Shown here: positions 45,125-55,870 of the stretch, piece by piece
Layout: the number at the start of each line of letters is the position of its first letter
How positions within the stretch are numbered: position 1 is the first letter of the stretch
Source: Pseudomonadota bacterium
Lineage (GTDB): Bacteria; Pseudomonadota; Gammaproteobacteria; Xanthomonadales; SZUA-38
Assembly (NCBI GenBank): GCA_039033415.1
Contig: JBCCCR010000003.1
Span: 186,001-250,000 of the forward strand
Reading direction: 5' to 3'
DNA length: 64,000 nt
The notes under the pieces: model-generated
Database searches by the model: none
Told to the model about the DNA's origin: nothing
What the model saw: the letters and a program-made list of their open reading frames with translations, nothing else
Position numbers and translations under genes: made by a program

Positions 45125-45154
45125 TTTGGGGGAAATGCCACCACCCCGCGTCTG
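45125..45154 (+). promoter_or_regulatory. Predicted ECF-sigma promoter of exported protein A
   Basis: TTTGGGGGA (45125-45133), 14 bases, then GCGTCTG (45148-45154). The same two blocks with the same spacing stand before paralogue B at 51218. A G-rich -35 and a CGTC-type -10 fit the general shape of ECF-sigma promoters. The inferred transcript would begin at or next to the ATG at 45161, i.e. nearly leaderless. Confidence 0.6.
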
Positions 45155-45160
45155 TCGATA

Positions 45161-46588
45161 ATGCGCATGGCCAAGACTGCTTTTCGACAATTCCTGTGTC
45201 TGATTTTTCTGCTTGGCTGCACGCAGACGCAGGCCGTTCGCCTCAGTCTGGACAGCGCCGGACAGGTGCTGCTGTTCCCGCTGTTTATTACCGGCGACAG
45301 CTTCCAGACGATCTTCGAGGTGCGCAACCAGACCGACCAGGGCAAAGCGCTGCGATTTGTCGTCAAAGACGCGGTAAACGGCCGCCCAACGCTGTCACTG
45401 AATGTCTATCTGAGCCCTCGGGACAGCTGGTCCGGCGCCCTGTTTGAACCCAGCGGCGCTTCGGTGGACACGGCTGAGAGCCTGCTGGCGCCCTGGGTCG
45501 ATCAGAGCTGCACGTTTCCGGCGCGCGCCGACATTCCCGACGAGGGTATTGCCCTGAGCGATGAGCAGTTTACGGAAGATCTGTCGGGCCTTCTGGTCTC
45601 CCGAAGCCGGCTGGGGTCAGGCTACGTCGAGATCTACGAGATGGGAACACTCGCCCCAACCCTGGCGGAGGACTGCGCCGAGATCAACGCCCGCTGGGCT
45701 GCCGGCGGCGCCTGGGACCTCGACCCGGGCCAGGATATCGAGGCGCCCGGCGGCGGGCTCGAGGGTTACGCGGTGCTGGTTCAGGTCGACAACGGCCGGG
45801 CCCACCAGTACGAGGCGATCGCGCTTGCCGACTTTCGCGACGCGTCACTTCACACCAATCCCTTCAGCAGCCGACAGCCAAATCTCGCCGACGTTTCCCC
45901 CGCTGAAAGCCGGGTTGTGGAAACGGTGGTGTTCGGAAACCGAACGCTTCAGGTCGAACGCGTGTCGACCTGGAGCGAGTTCCCGGTCCACGCGGTAGAC
46001 GCGCTGCTGATGGCCACGGAGGCCCGTGCCGATTTTACCGCAGCCCAGGAACTGGACGCCCTGGTCTTCGCCACGCTGAATTTCCCCACCCGGCCCTATC
46101 ATGCTGATGCCCAGACGTTTTTCCTCCCCGAAGGCCAGGAACGGGTGCTGGCGCCGTTCGCGGTGTCGCTGCCGGTCGAGGCCGACGAGAGCCTCGACCA
46201 GAACCGATTGACGGTGAGCTCCATCGACCGCGAAGGTGCTGCGTTCGACCTGCAGCCGTTCCCGGGGCAGATCAACTGCGACCTGGCCAACGGCGCGGTG
46301 TCCACCGTGTTCTTAAGCCGCACCATCGGCTTTACCGAGCCCTGCCCCTACACGACGGGCATCTTTCGCGTTCCGGACAATGCGTCAGAGGGAGAGGTTC
46401 GCTACCAGCTAAGCGGCGAGATCGTTTCGGACGAAGGCCACGTTTTCTCCGGGCTGCCCATCGCGGGATTTGTGATCCAGTCGATTACGAATGAGCAAAT
46501 CGACATACGCCCGGGAACCGTCGGCGTTGCCGACTACGGCTGGGCCAGGGCACTCAAGATCGAGCGCCAGGTGAGTGATCCGCCATGA
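45161..46588 (+). CDS. Exported protein A of the signalling island (uncharacterised surface family)
   Basis: This 475-residue protein has a secretion signal (FLCLIFLLGC, a possible lipobox, or cleavage after TQTQA). It belongs to an uncharacterised family, common as I recall in xanthomonads, recognised by VLLFPLFITGDSFQTIFEVRN cut after the first strand, RNQTDQGKALRF, LNVYLSPRDSW, a Cys pair (SCTFP...EDC), GSGYVEIYEMG and PGGGLEGYAVLV. It aligns end to end with protein B at 51275. Its stop overlaps the TonB gene by 4 bp (ATGA), so A and TonB are co-translated. I infer a surface or periplasmic component of the same uptake/signalling system. The role is unknown. Starts at 45161 and 45167 are both possible. 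Confidence 0.82.
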   Translation: MRMAKTAFRQFLCLIFLLGCTQTQAVRLSLDSAGQVLLFPLFITGDSFQTIFEVRNQTDQGKALRFVVKDAVNGRPTLSLNVYLSPRDSWSGALFEPSGASVDTAESLLAPWVDQSCTFPARADIPDEGIALSDEQFTEDLSGLLVSRSRLGSGYVEIYEMGTLAPTLAEDCAEINARWAAGGAWDLDPGQDIEAPGGGLEGYAVLVQVDNGRAHQYEAIALADFRDASLHTNPFSSRQPNLADVSPAESRVVETVVFGNRTLQVERVSTWSEFPVHAVDALLMATEARADFTAAQELDALVFATLNFPTRPYHADAQTFFLPEGQERVLAPFAVSLPVEADESLDQNRLTVSSIDREGAAFDLQPFPGQINCDLANGAVSTVFLSRTIGFTEPCPYTTGIFRVPDNASEGEVRYQLSGEIVSDEGHVFSGLPIAGFVIQSITNEQIDIRPGTVGVADYGWARALKIERQVSDPP

Positions 46589-47316
46589 CGGCCGACCGTC
46601 GCCTAACGCTGCTGATCGCGGCGTCGCTGCTGGTCCATTTGGTGGCGTTGGCGTGGTTTTATCGACCGGTGGCCGTTCCGCTGTCGTTACCCACGATGGA
46701 AGTACTGCTGGTCAGTCCCCGGCAGGCTCCGTCCTCCGCGCCGGTGATCACCGACCCCACCGAACGAACCGGCGCCAGCGAAACCCGGCCCGCCGAGTCG
46801 GACCCCGCTGCGGCAGCCACCAACCGAGCGGCGCCCACGCAGGCAGCGACCGACCGTCGGCTCAGCCGGCAGGGACCCACCCGCGAAACGGTTCGCCCGG
46901 CCACCGAAGCGTCGCCGCTACCGATTCCCGTTGTCGATCGGTCGCGCGCGCTCGAGCCGCTGACGCCGAGCAAACCTTTTTCGACGCCCGGGTCTGCCGC
47001 CAGCACACGGGAAGCGCAGAACGCCGGGGTCATCCTGGCGATCCGTCAGCAGCTTGCGCGCTACCAGGCGTATCCAGCCAGCGCGCGCCGGCGTGGGCTT
47101 GAAGGGGCGGCAACCGTTCGCTTTGTCATCACCCGCAGCGGCAGGCTGGTTGATTCAGAGCTGATGGAATCCTCCGGATCGCGGCATCTGGACCAGGCGG
47201 CGCTGAAGCTGGTATCCGACGCTGCGCCCTACCCGCCACTGCCCGCGGCCGTGTCCGCCGCAAGACTGGAAGTCAAAATCCCCATCGAATACCGGCTCGC
47301 GCCGCCCGCCACATGA
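46585..47316 (+). CDS. TonB-family energy transducer
   Basis: This 243-residue protein has an N-terminal membrane anchor (LTLLIAASLLVHLVALAWFY), a Pro/Ala/Thr-rich periplasmic linker and a TonB C-terminal domain: YPASARRRGLEGAATVRFVI, then SGSRHLDQAALKLV and PYPPLP. TonB proteins pass proton-gradient energy to outer-membrane receptors. The receptor gene of this island lies 1.6 kb downstream, so this is probably its dedicated partner. No ExbB/ExbD pair is nearby; TolQR or distant ExbBD may serve. Translation is coupled to protein A. Confidence 0.9.
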   Translation: MTADRRLTLLIAASLLVHLVALAWFYRPVAVPLSLPTMEVLLVSPRQAPSSAPVITDPTERTGASETRPAESDPAAAATNRAAPTQAATDRRLSRQGPTRETVRPATEASPLPIPVVDRSRALEPLTPSKPFSTPGSAASTREAQNAGVILAIRQQLARYQAYPASARRRGLEGAATVRFVITRSGRLVDSELMESSGSRHLDQAALKLVSDAAPYPPLPAAVSAARLEVKIPIEYRLAPPAT

Positions 47317-47347
47317 GCCTTCCGTCGTGAATTTGGCCGGGGCAGCT

Positions 47348-47818
47348 ATGGCCATCGAGCAGCATCGCCGGGAGCTGACGGCGTTTGCGGCCGCGATGGT
47401 CGGACCCGATCGCGCCGAGGATGTGGTGCAGGACGCCTGCTTCCGGCTGGCGCGCGCGCTTGAGCGACAGCCGGTGACCAACCAGCGGGCGTACCTGTTT
47501 CGCATCACCGCCAACCTCGCCCGCGACTTGCTGCGGCGGGACAAGCGCGCCGACCAGCACATCAAGACGCTGGCAAGGGACGAGCATAGCCCCGGAGCCG
47601 GCGAGGTCGCCGCGCTGGATGAACAGCTTGTGGCGCTGCGCGAGGCCATTACCCAGCTGCCGACAAAGTGTCAGCGGGCGTTTGTCGCGCGGAAATACGA
47701 GGGGCTGAGCTATCGGGAGATTGCTGCCCGCGAGGGTATCACCGAAAAAACCGTGGAAAACCATATTGGCCGAGCGCTGAAGCTGCTGCGTGAAGCGATG
47801 GCAGGACAGCAGCATTGA
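47348..47818 (+). CDS. FecI-like ECF sigma factor
   Basis: This sigma factor of 156 residues has region 2 (AEDVVQDACFRLARALE, NQRAYLFRITANLARDLLRR) and region 4 (LPTKCQRAFVARKYEGLSYR, ITEKTVENHIGRAL). It matches the iron-uptake (FecI) group, which is controlled by FecR and an outer-membrane receptor. ATG 47348 has GGGG six bases upstream; an alternative GTG at 47327 is weaker. The likely targets are the two matching promoter motifs that flank this island. Confidence 0.93.
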   Translation: MAIEQHRRELTAFAAAMVGPDRAEDVVQDACFRLARALERQPVTNQRAYLFRITANLARDLLRRDKRADQHIKTLARDEHSPGAGEVAALDEQLVALREAITQLPTKCQRAFVARKYEGLSYREIAAREGITEKTVENHIGRALKLLREAMAGQQH

Positions 47819-47912
47819 TGGAACTTCGAAGAAGAAACCCGGAACTTACGGGAGGAGTGGTAACGCCGTCTGCAGGGCTCCGTTAGGGGCAAAGCGGCGG
47901 CGATACGTTGTT

Positions 47913-48884
47913 ATGACGACCAATAGTGAAAAACCCAACGTGATTCAACAGGCTGCACAATGGATGAGTCGGCTGGCTGCTGACGGCAACCCAAGCTGGG
48001 ATGATCCAGAGCTGGCCGCCTGGCTAAGGGAATCGCCCGGTCACCGGGAGGCGTTTGCTGAGGTCAGCGCCATTTGGTTTGCGGCTGACCAGCTGGAAGC
48101 GTCCGACCTGGGTGATGAGCTCGAGCAGTCGTCAAGGCTGGATCCCATGCCCGCAGCTGAGTCCGGTCGCGCCACGCCCACAGCACGCCGGAACCGCCGC
48201 TGGCCGCTACTTGCGGCGGGCATGATGGCGCTGGTGGTGGCGCTGATCGTGCCGGCAATCCCCAAGCAGTGGGCCGGCATGCAGGCCGACTTTGCCACCC
48301 AGGCAGGGCAGGTCCAGTCGGTGGCGCTGGAAGACGGCAGCAGCGTGCAGCTGGCCGGCGACAGCGCCGTGAGTCTGCGGCCGGGGGGGCGCGGGCTAGT
48401 CCTTCACTACGGCGAAATCTTTCTGGACGTTGAGCACAACGCAGCCGAGCCGTTTGTCGTCGAAACGAGCGAAGCCAAAGTCACCGTCCTTGGGACCCAG
48501 TTCGGCGTTTCCTGGCGCGACCGGATTCACCGCGCCGGCGTCGTCGAGGGCCGCGTGGCGGTGCAGCACGGGCAGTTACCCGTCGTCGAGCTCAGCCGCG
48601 GGCAGTTCGCCCGCGACGGGCAGCGAGTCGCGGATCCCGGCTTAGTGCAGCGCTACTTTGGCTGGTCTTCGGGCAACCTGGTGTTTGACGATCTCCCGCT
48701 GTCCGAGGTGCTCGCGCGACTGGCCCCTTTTCTGGATCGACCCGTCGTCAAGCTGCCGGGCGCCGGTGACCCATCGGTCAGCGCCGTTATCGCCGTCGAC
48801 AGCGGCCCGCAGGCGCTGGAGACGCTGGCATCGCGGGCCGGCCTCCGGCTGGTTTCCGCCGGACCCGTCACGCTGCTGTATTGA
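47913..48884 (+). CDS. FecR-family anti-sigma/regulator
   Basis: This protein of 323 residues has a cytoplasmic DUF4880 region (AAQWMSRLAADGNPSWDD, LAAWLRESPGHREAFAEV), one membrane helix (LLAAGMMALVVALIVPAI), a FecR domain (GQVQSVALEDGSSVQLAGDS, VTVLGTQFGVSW) and a C-terminal STN-like module (LVFDDLPLSEVLARLAPFLD). FecR relays receptor occupancy from the periplasm to the sigma factor. The open frame begins at 47790, but ATG 47913 starts the conserved part. Its stop shares one base with the receptor's ATG. Confidence 0.92.
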   Translation: MTTNSEKPNVIQQAAQWMSRLAADGNPSWDDPELAAWLRESPGHREAFAEVSAIWFAADQLEASDLGDELEQSSRLDPMPAAESGRATPTARRNRRWPLLAAGMMALVVALIVPAIPKQWAGMQADFATQAGQVQSVALEDGSSVQLAGDSAVSLRPGGRGLVLHYGEIFLDVEHNAAEPFVVETSEAKVTVLGTQFGVSWRDRIHRAGVVEGRVAVQHGQLPVVELSRGQFARDGQRVADPGLVQRYFGWSSGNLVFDDLPLSEVLARLAPFLDRPVVKLPGAGDPSVSAVIAVDSGPQALETLASRAGLRLVSAGPVTLLY

Positions 48885-51208
48885 TGCCACTTCAGTCCCG
48901 TAGAGCCTGGCTCGCGGTGCTGGCGACGCTGCTCACCAGCGTTGCCACCGCGCAGCCTTTGCTGCGGGATGTGCTGAGCGAGCTGAGCACGCGCCTCGGC
49001 TGGAACTACGTGCTGGGTCCCGGCGTTTCGCTGGACACGCCGGTGGATCAAGCCGTCACCAGCGAGACGGCGCTGGCCAGCTGGCTGCAAACCCAGGGCA
49101 TCGAGCTAGTCCAGCTGCCCTCGGGGGACCGTGAACTCAGGCAGCTGAGCCAGGCCAGCCTGAGCCTTTCGGCCCTCCCGGTCACCGCCACGCTGCCCGT
49201 GGCCGCCGGCCTGCCGCTGCGCAGTGGCGTCAGCGCCACCACCGTTTCAGCCAGCGATATTGAGAACCTCACCGACAACCGGCTCGATCAGCTGTTCGCG
49301 CGGGCCGCCAACGTCTTTGGCAGCGGCGACGAATACTATTTCCGGGGAATTCCGAGCGCCGGGGACCTCAACACGCTCGGCAACGCCGCGGCGGTGGTTG
49401 GAGAGGCGCCGCTCGCCGGCGTGGTGCTGGCCAACCTGCCTCTGAGCACCTGGGATACGGCCAGCGCCGGCTTTGAGCGCGGCCCGCGGAGCGCCAGCGT
49501 TGCAGGCCCCTTCAGCACCTTTGGCGGACGTATCAGCATCGTTCCCCAACAGCCCCAGTTTACGACTCAGCGCGCGCTGCGGGCCGGCGTGAGCGACCTC
49601 GGCGACACCCAGGCTTCGGTGATGATCAACCAGCCGCTGCTGGCCGAAGAGCTGGCCTTACGCGTGAGCTTCGATCGCCAAACGGTCGCCGGTACTCTCG
49701 ACGATCCGGGTGACCGTGGTCTGGGCTCAGACTTTAACTTCAGTCGCAGCAATACCGCCCGGCTGGCTGCGCTGTGGGAACCGGCAACGCTACCCGAGTT
49801 TGCCCTGGCTGTGGACTGGACGGCTTTCGACGGCCGAGCCGGACCCCAGCGGCTCAGCGCGGCAGACCCCTTCAGCCGCCGTGGGCGCGCACCGCCCTTT
49901 CGCGAACGCGAGGTCGACGGTCACGTCGCTTCGCTGAAGCTGAGCTGGGAGCCGGCAGCCACCCAGCGATGGGATCTCTCGCTGGTCGACTCCGGCGGTG
50001 ACGCGGAGCTCGAACCAAGCAGGCTGCTGGTCAACGATTTTGACCCAACCGACCTTCTCATCGACGCGGAGGAGGAAAACCTGCGCTTTGCGCAGCTCAA
50101 CTGGGAGGCTCGGTGGCGGGGGGCAAACATCAACGCTGGCCTCAGCACGGGCGTTAACCAGAGCCGTGAAGTCTATCGGCGAGAACAGCGTCGCTGGCAG
50201 CTGGACAGCCGCCTGCGGAGACACACGGCTTCGGTCGCGGTGGAAAAACCGCTGTCCACCCGCTGGCGGGTCGAAGCCGGCGTTCGACTTTCCCGGGACG
50301 AGCTGCGGCGCGATTGTGAAACGCGGCCCGAGACGGCAGCACCCGACGGCGACAACGCGACGTTGGCCTGTCTTCAGGTCTCCGGACTGCTGCTGATTCC
50401 AGCCGACGGTCAGTTTGAGCCCTTCCGTGAAACCTACCGCAACGTGAGTCCGGAGCTGGCCCTGAGCTATCGCCCCGGCGAAACCGGCGAGTACTTTATG
50501 CGCCTGGCTGAAGGGTTCAACGCCGGCGGCGCCGTTTCTGACGCCACGTTTGCCGGCACCCCACAATGGCTCTCCTACGAGCCGGAGCGCATCCGGAGCG
50601 CGGAGCTTGGCTGGCGTGGCCAGCTGGGGCCGCTGCAGCTCAGCACGACCGGTTTCTTTACACAGCTCGATCAACAGTGGCAGGTGGTTGAAGATCAGCT
50701 GAATCTTGGCGCCGTGACCAATGCCGGCAAGTCGCGCAACTGGGGCCTGGAGCTGGACGGCCGCTGGCGCATCGGTGAAGCACACGCCCTGAGTTTCAGT
50801 CTCGGGTGGCTGGACACCGAGTACGAGCAGTTCCTTCCGTTTGAGCGAGACGCGTTGCTTGAGCCGGCATCGGGAAACCAGTTTCCGGGCGCGCCTCGTT
50901 ACTCGGGTGCGCTGAGCTGGGCCAGCCAGCTGGGCGGCGGTTGGCGCCTCGGGGCGGGATTAAGCTTTCACGCGTCGGTGCAGGCCAACGCGAACAATCC
51001 CGAAGCGGGAGAGATTCCGGGGGTGGCGCTGACCGACCTCAATTTGGGCTGGCAGGGAAAAGGCTTCCAGGTTGCCCTGACCGCCAACAATTTGTTCGAT
51101 CGTGACTATCACCAGACCACACCCAACGTGGTGCGGCGCAACCAGCGAATCGACTTCCTGCCCGGCCGCCCGCGCAACATTACGCTCACCGTTCACTATC
51201 GATTCTAG
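48884..51208 (+). CDS. TonB-dependent transducer (STN-domain outer-membrane receptor)
   Basis: This 774-residue receptor has a signal peptide (LAVLATLLTSVATAQ). It carries an STN signalling domain (~26-90; LLRDVLSELSTRLGWNYVLG, VTSETALASWLQTQGIEL) that should contact FecR, a plug (VSASDIENLTDNRLDQLFAR, YYFRGIPSAGD) and a 22-strand-type barrel ending in ITLTVHYRF with the terminal Phe. The STN domain marks it as a transducer that both imports and signals. The ligand cannot be told; FecI/FecR context often means an iron complex, but carbohydrate cases exist. The start overlaps FecR by one base. Confidence 0.93.
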   Translation: MPLQSRRAWLAVLATLLTSVATAQPLLRDVLSELSTRLGWNYVLGPGVSLDTPVDQAVTSETALASWLQTQGIELVQLPSGDRELRQLSQASLSLSALPVTATLPVAAGLPLRSGVSATTVSASDIENLTDNRLDQLFARAANVFGSGDEYYFRGIPSAGDLNTLGNAAAVVGEAPLAGVVLANLPLSTWDTASAGFERGPRSASVAGPFSTFGGRISIVPQQPQFTTQRALRAGVSDLGDTQASVMINQPLLAEELALRVSFDRQTVAGTLDDPGDRGLGSDFNFSRSNTARLAALWEPATLPEFALAVDWTAFDGRAGPQRLSAADPFSRRGRAPPFREREVDGHVASLKLSWEPAATQRWDLSLVDSGGDAELEPSRLLVNDFDPTDLLIDAEEENLRFAQLNWEARWRGANINAGLSTGVNQSREVYRREQRRWQLDSRLRRHTASVAVEKPLSTRWRVEAGVRLSRDELRRDCETRPETAAPDGDNATLACLQVSGLLLIPADGQFEPFRETYRNVSPELALSYRPGETGEYFMRLAEGFNAGGAVSDATFAGTPQWLSYEPERIRSAELGWRGQLGPLQLSTTGFFTQLDQQWQVVEDQLNLGAVTNAGKSRNWGLELDGRWRIGEAHALSFSLGWLDTEYEQFLPFERDALLEPASGNQFPGAPRYSGALSWASQLGGGWRLGAGLSFHASVQANANNPEAGEIPGVALTDLNLGWQGKGFQVALTANNLFDRDYHQTTPNVVRRNQRIDFLPGRPRNITLTVHYRF

Positions 51209-51217
51209 GAAACGCGT

Positions 51218-51247
51218 TTTGGGGGACAAGACCCGGGTATGCGTCTG
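51218..51247 (+). promoter_or_regulatory. Predicted ECF-sigma promoter of exported protein B
   Basis: TTTGGGGGA (51218-51226), 14 bases, then GCGTCTG (51241-51247) repeats the element at 45125 exactly, while the 14 bases between differ. It begins 10 bp after the receptor stop and lies 27 bp before protein B's ATG, leaving room for a leader with GGAG. Confidence 0.62.
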
Positions 51248-51274
51248 CCGGGCATGAAACATCGGAGAACAACA

Positions 51275-52552
51275 ATGCGATCAACCTCAACTTTTCTAAC
51301 CCTGATGCTGCTGGCCACGGTGCTCCCTTGCGGAGTGGGCGCCGTCAGCCTGGACACCACCGGCGCTGACAGCCAGGTGCTGATTTTCCCCCTCTTTTCC
51401 ACCGAGGGTGACAACGTGACGGAACTGACAATCCGCAATCACACCGATCAAGGCAAGGCGCTAAAGGTGCTCACCAAGGACGCGCTGAGCGGGCGTCCTA
51501 CGATCAGCATCAACGTATACCTCAAGCCGGGCGACGCCTGGAATGCTCGGCTGACGGGACAGCCGCGCTTCTCCACCAGCATCACCACCGAGGACGAGAG
51601 CTGCACGGTGCCGCGGCTCGGTACGGTGCGCGCTACCCCGGTGCACCTGGACCGTTCGCTCAACGAAAGCCTGCTGCCCCGCAGCCGCCTCGACAGCGGC
51701 TACATCGAGGTGTTTGAAATGGGCGAGATTCCGGCTGAGCTTGCCGGCGACTGCAACGCGATCAGTCAGCGGTTTACGGACGGCGAGTGGTCGGGCAACG
51801 ATCTCTTTCTCAATGACAGCGTCACCGCGCCAGGCGGTGGCCTATCGGGCATCTCGTTTATCAAAGACGTCGACTCCGGGCGCACCTTTGCCCTGCAGCC
51901 GACCGGGCTGGCGGATTTCAGCAGCGAGCCGATGCACACCGTGAGTGCCCGCGCGGGGCGTCCGTCGCTGGCCAACGTCATGCCCCCGCAGGCCGAGGTG
52001 AATGGCCAGACCGAGACGTTTGCGACCAACCCGATTAACGCGGTGGAAGCGGTGCTGATGACTCAGCAGCTGGCCGCTGAATACCACAGCGAAGAGGACG
52101 CTCGCGCGTTTGCCAGCGCCCTGGTGCTGCTGCCCACCCGCCCGTTTCACGCCAACCCGGGCTTTTATCGGAGTTTCACCGCCTCACCCTTTGCGCCCGA
52201 CGACAGCCCGGTGAATGGGAATCTGGTGGACAACACCGGCGACCCAATCGAAGACCTGCCGGCACCGGTGGCGGGCATCAACTGCGATCGCTATACCGGC
52301 GCGGTGAATTTTGTGCAGCTCGTCAACTTCTTTGCCTTCAGCCACCCGTGCCTGCTCGGCGACGCAGAGTTTTTTCTGTTTGATGACGACGTGCGCGGAC
52401 TGCTGGAGCTGCCGCTGGCCGGCAGCGTGACCTCAGACGAGGGCACCGTGTTCAACGGCCTGCCCGCTGTGGGCCACATGCTTCAGACCAGTCTCGACGG
52501 CAGCAACGCCAACGCGCTCGGCATCTACACCGTGCCGATGCGGCGGCAATGA
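51275..52552 (+). CDS. Exported protein B of the signalling island (paralogue of A)
   Basis: This protein of 425 residues has a signal peptide ending GVGA. It follows protein A closely: VLIFPLFSTEGDNVTELTIR, RNHTDQGKALKV, INVYLKPGDAW, SCTVP, DSGYIEVFEMG, APGGGLSGISFI and FNGLPAVGHMLQ. It is about 50 residues shorter than A and has no lipobox cysteine at the cleavage site. ATG 51275 has GGAG seven bases before it; upstream in-frame ATGs at 51239 and 51254 fall within or at the start site of the predicted promoter and are discounted. It lies directly after the receptor and before a strong terminator, closing the island. The function is unknown. Confidence 0.83.
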   Translation: MRSTSTFLTLMLLATVLPCGVGAVSLDTTGADSQVLIFPLFSTEGDNVTELTIRNHTDQGKALKVLTKDALSGRPTISINVYLKPGDAWNARLTGQPRFSTSITTEDESCTVPRLGTVRATPVHLDRSLNESLLPRSRLDSGYIEVFEMGEIPAELAGDCNAISQRFTDGEWSGNDLFLNDSVTAPGGGLSGISFIKDVDSGRTFALQPTGLADFSSEPMHTVSARAGRPSLANVMPPQAEVNGQTETFATNPINAVEAVLMTQQLAAEYHSEEDARAFASALVLLPTRPFHANPGFYRSFTASPFAPDDSPVNGNLVDNTGDPIEDLPAPVAGINCDRYTGAVNFVQLVNFFAFSHPCLLGDAEFFLFDDDVRGLLELPLAGSVTSDEGTVFNGLPAVGHMLQTSLDGSNANALGIYTVPMRRQ

Positions 52553-52609
52553 GGTCTCCAGAAGTCTGGCCGATCGCCTGATCGATCAGTCCCAGGCGTT
52601 CGCCCTGTT

Positions 52610-52640
52610 GCGGCCCCGAGGTTTGGGGCCGCTTTTTTTT
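52610..52640 (+). terminator. Rho-independent terminator after the signalling island
   Basis: GCGGCCCC (52610-52617), a 7-base loop, GGGGCCGC (52625-52632), then eight T residues (52633-52640). The eight-pair GC stem is perfect. It ends transcription of the island 58 bp after protein B and separates it from the next operon. Confidence 0.93.
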
Positions 52641-55129: not shown

Positions 55130-55870
55130 CTAACGTTCCCGCCAGCCGCAGGAGACAACAATCAGCACATATTTGCATCTCACCTCCAGCCCAAAATTGG
55201 TGACAAACCCGAACTCCGGCGTGATGCGATCGAAGGTGCGGGCGATATCTCCTTTCACGCCGGCCGAATAGAAGCGAAGGCCCATCTCCCCCGGTTCAAA
55301 CGGCAGCTGCGGCAGCGGGCCGTCGAGCTCGGTCAGCAGGTTGGTCTGGTCTGCGAGCCCCAGGGCGAGGGGTGCCGGCGGTGTCTTGGGGTCCGCCGGC
55401 GTCAGCCGGGGATTTTCCTCGATACGGTAGCGGCGCATGCGCTTGAGAATATCTTCAGCCCTCGGGGCTGGTGACGCTTCGTCCACGTTTGGAACCTCGG
55501 TCGGCGGCAGGCTGACGGTTGGGATCGTCGGCGTTGGCGCTGTGGCTGCCGGGGCGGGTTCAGCAGGCGGCGAATCCGGCGACGTTTCGGTGGGCAACGC
55601 GGGGACGGCCTGCTGCGGCTCCGAGGGGGCCTCGGTCACAGGCACCGGCGCCAATTTTGGCAGCGGCTCAACGCGATCGGGCACAAGCTCCAAACGGATC
55701 GCCTCGCGCTCGTCGACATTCGGCTCGGGCAGAGGCAGACCTGCCAGCCACCAAAGCGCCGCCAGGTGGGCCAGCAGCGCCAGCCAAAACCATCGAAGCG
55801 GCCGCGGGTTACGTCCCCAGCGGGCCGCAGGCCACCGCGGCAGATCCGCCGTGGCCGTCAGAGTACCCAT
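55130..55870 (-). CDS. Proline-rich membrane-anchored protein of unknown function
   Basis: This 246-residue protein has one N-terminal membrane helix (WFWLALLAHLAALWWLAGL) with a TonB-like start and a Pro/Ala/Glu/Thr-rich stretch (~60-130). The C-terminal domain (LGLADQTNLLTELDGPLPQL, GLRFYSAGVKGDIARTFDRI, EVRCKYVLIVVSCGW) does not look like the TonB fold, although the two terminal cysteines may form a disulfide. It lies 79 bp after ppc on the same strand. The function is unknown. Confidence 0.75.
   Translation of the reverse strand: MGTLTATADLPRWPAARWGRNPRPLRWFWLALLAHLAALWWLAGLPLPEPNVDEREAIRLELVPDRVEPLPKLAPVPVTEAPSEPQQAVPALPTETSPDSPPAEPAPAATAPTPTIPTVSLPPTEVPNVDEASPAPRAEDILKRMRRYRIEENPRLTPADPKTPPAPLALGLADQTNLLTELDGPLPQLPFEPGEMGLRFYSAGVKGDIARTFDRITPEFGFVTNFGLEVRCKYVLIVVSCGWRER

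Follow-up and report, generated by a model that had tools for sequence, protein, structure and literature searches.

A six-gene island was analyzed in a 64,000-nt stretch (the window) of the forward strand of a Pseudomonadota bacterium genome (G000; GenBank assembly GCA_039033415.1, contig JBCCCR010000003.1), in which it occupies positions 45,125–52,640. The island likely represents a FecI/FecR/TonB-dependent-receptor operon with its own TonB, in which the extracytoplasmic function (ECF) sigma factor drives both its own operon and a set of exported proteins headed by two paralogues, A and B. The genes run in one direction in the order A, TonB, ECF sigma, FecR, TonB-dependent receptor, and B, followed by a terminator. 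This cell-surface-signaling system very probably has A and B among its outputs, because the two share a promoter motif that is kept across genera, and because the motif and A/B relatives also occur beside the operons of genomes G014 and G562. The original prediction had suggested that A and B are products of the system, and comparative evidence supports this view well: the motif before A and B is kept in another genus, and relatives with the motif accompany a TonB-FecI-FecR-receptor operon in a second bacterial family. Genes, synteny, and motif distribution were established computationally.

Most known FecI/FecR systems govern iron-carrier uptake. The evidence here points to a FecI/FecR subtype that has its own promoter class and repeatedly has exported proteins as its outputs, with representatives in three or more bacterial families. 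A large protein family with no database entry gains a first functional handle, a testable regulon marked by the motif TTGGGGGA-N15/16-CGTC.

Promoter motif and conservation of the island

A motif with the general form of an ECF promoter, made of a GGGGGA-like −35 element and a CGTC −10 element 15–16 bases apart, was identified. As TTGGGGGA-N15-CGTC, it lies directly before A at 45126–45152 (+ strand; CGTCT extends to 45153) and before B at 51219–51245 (+ strand; CGTCT to 51246). These are the only exact copies in the window, where a looser form with up to two mismatches is no rarer than chance. A degenerate copy, TTAGGGGC-N15-CGTT, precedes fecR at 47883–47909 (+ strand). A FecA-type GGAAAT −35 box before A was considered and rejected, as it fits A but not B. 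With the −10 element about 8 bases ahead of the A ATG, the message from which A is translated may have no leader or almost none. The position of the motif before B supports a B start at 51275; another in-frame ATG further upstream, at 51239, overlaps the motif.

The island was compared in 61 relatives. All six genes, in unchanged order, were found in G001, of the same genus, and in G003, of another genus in the same bacterial family. Identities between G000 and G003 are 57% for A, 60% for the C-terminal part of TonB, 58% for the sigma factor, 38% for FecR, 43% for the receptor, and 40% for B. The left flank in G003 differs from that in G000, and the right flank is shared only in part. The motif before A is kept in both relatives with N15. 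Before B, it is kept in G001 as TTAGGGGA and in G003 with N16, and the G003 island has a third site before fecR. The regions upstream of A and B in G001 and G003 have no other obvious similarity. In a protein tree, the A and B proteins of G000, G001, and G003 form two clades, which together with one G002 copy make a single supported group. This topology indicates that A and B are old paralogues that stayed with the signaling system.

Independent tests of the motif were provided by G003, G014, G562, and the f4 systems. An order-wide survey covered 2.97 Mb strand-bases of DNA around 96 A/B-family genes and found ten strict sites. Of these, nine are correctly oriented upstream of family genes, against an expectation of 0.017 based on the remainder, and the tenth precedes fecR in G003. 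No strict motif was found on the opposite strand of the family-upstream regions, and none of the family copies linked to secretion genes (described below) carries the motif.

All 10 TonB-type systems examined have a recognizable motif in the FecI-FecR gap, among them the window, with its degenerate site before fecR. Its form is TTGGGGG[AGC]-N15/16-CGTC in G003, G006, G026, G014, and G562, CTGGGGGA-N15-CGTC in G040, G347, and G340, and TTAGGGGC or TTGGGGGC with CGTT in G000 and G001. In 24 loci lacking a linked TonB, a strict scan found the motif before 0 of 28 FecR genes; looser forms were sought by eye and in TonB-type systems alone, and the comparison is not blind for these.

In G014, which belongs to another bacterial family, the TonB, FecI, FecR, and receptor genes have the same order. 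Two family genes lie divergently with the motif ahead of them on their own strand, and the FecI-FecR gap contains the variant TTGGGGGC-N15-CGTC. G562, a genome outside motif discovery, has a G014-like layout, in which TTGGGGGG-N15/16-CGTCT precedes the family gene and the same form precedes fecR. The strict motif also precedes an unlinked family gene in G562. In the set of new regions that includes G562, the strict motif was found before 1 of 27 family genes and 0 times on the control strand. In G014 and G562 taken together, family genes follow 3 of 10 CTTGGGGGA sites, and several of the rest lie before genes for proteins with signal-peptide-like starts. The sigma factor of G026 was used to query 299 genomes. 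The best matches were sigma factors of motif-bearing systems, in G562, G014, G006, G040, G003 (island), G347, and G340, after which scores dropped; the island sigma factors of G000 and G001 matched at about 1e-22, among other ECF sigma factors.

Genome-wide, six strict sites were found in G000 and five in G003 (three within the island), and reversed-pattern controls gave three and one. Three remote sites in G000 (C1:287252, C12:15896, and C53:2473; loci L125, L134, and L138) lie 28–81 bases ahead of genes for proteins with signal-peptide-like starts. They are suggestive of further regulon members and are graded no higher because the reversed control pattern likewise yields three. At a different FecI/FecR locus of G000 (L170:5670–5765, + strand), two GGGGGA-like elements lie between fecR and the receptor gene, one of them with CGTC at N15. 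A related sigma factor may use a similar promoter there.

The A/B family and type II secretion

A and B align with 35% identity across 449 positions, almost their whole length (E 1e-70), in agreement with the end-to-end paralogy noticed originally. Neither has a Pfam or NCBIfam match or a relative in the PDB, and among 34 relatives no Pfam match was better than E 0.025 and no credible PDB relative was found. No description of the A/B family or of the TonB-FecI-FecR subtype was found in the open-access literature. A, B, and their relatives begin with Sec signal peptides of the signal-peptidase-I type (read by inspection of the sequences). A, B, and the G003 orthologues align at an ...A-V[RS] cleavage site. 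The earlier suggestion of accessory lipoproteins was abandoned: a proper lipobox is lacking, and the LLGC of A is off consensus and is not kept in G003. Two invariant cysteines are common to A, B, and the wider family and probably form a disulfide, which with the type I signal peptides is consistent with periplasmic folding.

The family set comprises 96 copies from 46 genomes, each with 19-kb surroundings; L007 contributes three further open reading frames (ORFs). Five copies are in the 6.4-Mb G000 genome. In a spread sample of the class, 10 of 276 genomes had matches to the family, the source genome included. An Xps-type type II secretion operon adjoins 44 copies, in 43 of the 46 genomes, which makes the A/B family a near-universal neighbor of this operon in the family-bearing genomes of the order. 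The linked order is GspK, GspL, GspM, XpsN, GspD, a 131-aa lipoprotein, and the family gene, often followed by an exported 354-aa protein, a PpiC-type isomerase, and an ABC-2 exporter. The copies in the other three genomes are close to contig ends or have no recognized secretion genes around them. In the family tree, secretion-linked copies mostly track species families, and the remaining copies are expansions.

Eight family copies lie within 10 kb of a FecR gene, where 0.61 are expected by chance. Outside the bacterial family of the window, two such copies were observed (a tandem pair in G014) with 0.35 expected. The idea that the whole family is tied to FecI/FecR was therefore rejected, since the association is near chance level outside f1 and g14. 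The neighborhood link originally proposed for A/B homologues stands for the island branch and for some G014 and G562 copies; most homologues lie by a type II secretion operon.

Some settings and architectures of family members stand out. In L044 (8135–9721, − strand), as in the 43 of 46 secretion-linked genomes, an A/B relative directly behind gspD is accompanied by a small lipoprotein, a 354-aa exported protein of no known family, a PpiC isomerase, and an ABC-2 exporter. These genes apparently form an undescribed extension of the Xps-type operon. Double-length fusions of two family units occur at L088:8330–11155 and L007:2256–5195 (941 and 979 aa), with a 175-aa protein encoded after them; the L007 fusion has a weak, sub-cut-off match to an outer-membrane beta-barrel family. 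Lineage-specific expansion is repeated, with four tandem family genes in G017 (L076:6845–13358, + strand), eight copies in G014, and eleven in G056. No A/B relative was found in phage records, and no full-length relative in a viral collection. A viral contig (IMGVR_UViG_3300023275_000046; L141:2133–2510, − strand) encodes a 125-aa fragment with the family signal peptide and N-terminal domain, beside a lysozyme-like gene.

Gene content of the island

All six genes are on the + strand, and their order and terminator agree with the original prediction, as judged by ORFs, Pfam matches, and a hairpin with a T-run. A (45161–46588; 475 aa) was identified by its ORF and paralogue alignment, with ATG 45167 as a possible start. 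The TonB-family energy transducer (46585–47316) matches TonB_C (1.4e-17) and TIGR01352 (1.3e-19). The FecI-like ECF sigma factor (47327–47818) has a GTG start at 47327, with ATG 47348 also possible, and contains both region 2 and region 4 (Pfam Sigma70_r2, 5e-13; Sigma70_r4_2, 6e-17). Its gene adjoins that of the FecR-type anti-sigma factor (47913–48884), which matches FecR (6.7e-17) and DUF4880 (1.2e-6) in Pfam and has one apparent transmembrane segment, a hydrophobic stretch read from the sequence. The TonB-dependent receptor (48884–51208; 774 aa) has a full-length beta-barrel (Pfam PF00593, 9e-30) and an N-terminal extension of about 80 aa. B (51275–52552; 425 aa) was identified by its ORF and by alignment to A. 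The intrinsic terminator (52610–52640), read directly from the sequence, is a hairpin followed by eight Ts, GCGGCCCC-gaggttt-GGGGCCGC-TTTTTTTT.

The predicted overlaps at A/TonB and FecR/receptor are present, the former of 4 bases (ATGA) and the latter as TGATG. The FecI-FecR junction is a 94-base gap and the receptor-B junction a 66-base gap, with no overlap at either. The gene for a secreted beta-propeller protein (PF09826, 905 aa; L055:13237–15954, + strand) begins 3 bases past B in G003, where B may thus head a longer operon for exported proteins. To the right of the island, a 246-aa protein without a Pfam match is encoded at 55130–55870 of the window (− strand); G001 and G003 keep this gene on the same side of the island.

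Interpretation and known systems

An extracellular ligand would engage the receptor, TonB would energize it, and FecR would release the ECF sigma factor. The sigma factor would recognize TTGGGGGA-N15/16-CGTC and drive A-tonB-fecI-fecR-receptor, an internal promoter before fecR, and B. We infer this signal route, its ligand, and the recognition step; the island sigma factor reading the motif appears to be the most economical account. A and B would pass through Sec into the periplasm, fold there, and probably arrive at the surface or in the medium. Type II secretion is a less secure proposal for their export, made because relatives usually sit behind gspD.

Several points weigh against an autoregulated operon with A and B as outputs. 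Because the motif was first spotted by eye ahead of A and B, G000 by itself gives no independent test. In both G000 and G001, the copy before fecR is degenerate. The f4 systems have the motif and no adjacent family gene. The sigma tree contains two supported clades (f1; f4 with f12) and does not settle their junction. Finally, the window receptor has no significant Pfam match to the STN domain. Counterparts score E 0.18 in G003 and 2.6e-4, under the cut-off, in G014, and an STN profile search of the N-terminal extension against solved structures found no match.

The original prediction also saw A and B as possible partners of the system, for example in ligand capture. It is unlikely that they work together with the receptor, binding or presenting its ligand at the surface like SusD lipoproteins with SusC transporters and induced within a capture machine. 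They lie on either side of the receptor and are apparently regulated along with it. In a low-confidence model of one family member, the N-terminal beta-sandwich resembled TM1070 (VIA-align Z 8.6, 108 residues) and, less so, galectin-type sandwiches (Z up to 6). However, the two AlphaFold runs had mean pLDDT values of 40 and 43, and the fold matches are unreliable because the mean for the model was 43; Foldseek with a predicted family structure returned nothing at E ≤ 1e-3. A and B also lack a lipobox and a SusD match, and most family members sit beside type II secretion genes without a linked receptor.

More doubtful still is that A and B are ordinary exported proteins whose promoter element is read by another sigma factor or regulator, with FecI/FecR and the receptor controlling something else, such as siderophore uptake. 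G000 has 11 FecR genes, so further ECF sigma factors exist, and the nearest solved relatives of the receptor are siderophore, metallophore, and pyrroloquinoline quinone (PQQ) receptors. However, the motif is also found in TonB-type FecI-FecR gaps and is absent before other FecR genes by strict scan, and motif, family genes, and TonB-FecI-FecR co-occur in two bacterial families. That the six genes are adjacent by chance, with A and B as unrelated passengers, is hardly credible: the family is large and scattered through genomes, but its copies lie near FecR genes far above the 0.61 expected, gene order is kept across genera at low sequence identity, and the promoters are in common.

The favored reading, in which the sigma factor transcribes its own operon and the exported proteins, allows a broader proposal that we put forward tentatively, at somewhat less than even probability. 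The A/B family may be an unrecognized companion of Xps-type type II secretion in much of the order, as substrate or surface partner. The TonB-FecI-FecR-receptor subtype, with its own promoter class, may command duplicated members and other exported proteins, in which case receptor sensing would serve to remodel the secreted surface and not to import nutrients.

In Bacteroidota, SusC/SusD systems with an ECF sigma factor and FecR place a receptor and co-regulated exported partners together. The island likewise has a receptor and, probably co-regulated with it, exported proteins beside an ECF sigma/FecR pair, but A and B are not lipoproteins and have no SusD/RagB family match in Pfam or NCBIfam. 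In Xanthomonadales, the operon for Xps-type type II secretion has A/B relatives directly behind gspD and the small lipoprotein gene in 43 of 46 genomes, whereas A and B themselves lie far off (G000:C3 versus C18) and the secretion-linked copies are motif-free.

As in Escherichia coli FecI/FecR/FecA, an ECF sigma factor, a FecR-domain inner-membrane regulator, and a TonB-dependent receptor are encoded together, here with a putative sigma-dependent promoter adjoining them. Unlike that system, the island carries its own tonB within the operon and probably controls exported members of an undescribed family, and no transport genes were seen linked to it. The island sigma factor would drive its own operon and thus appears autoregulated, unlike E. 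coli fecIR and Serratia hasI, which are not (PMC9249621). The nearest functional parallel is the surface-signaling system VreA-VreI-VreR (PUMA3) of Pseudomonas aeruginosa, in which VreI governs the Hxc genes for type II secretion as well as exported proteins and a putative peptidyl-prolyl isomerase; a tonB homologue lies nearby (PMC2729926). PUMA3 differs in gene order and in VreA, which lacks a beta-barrel, whereas the island receptor is full length.

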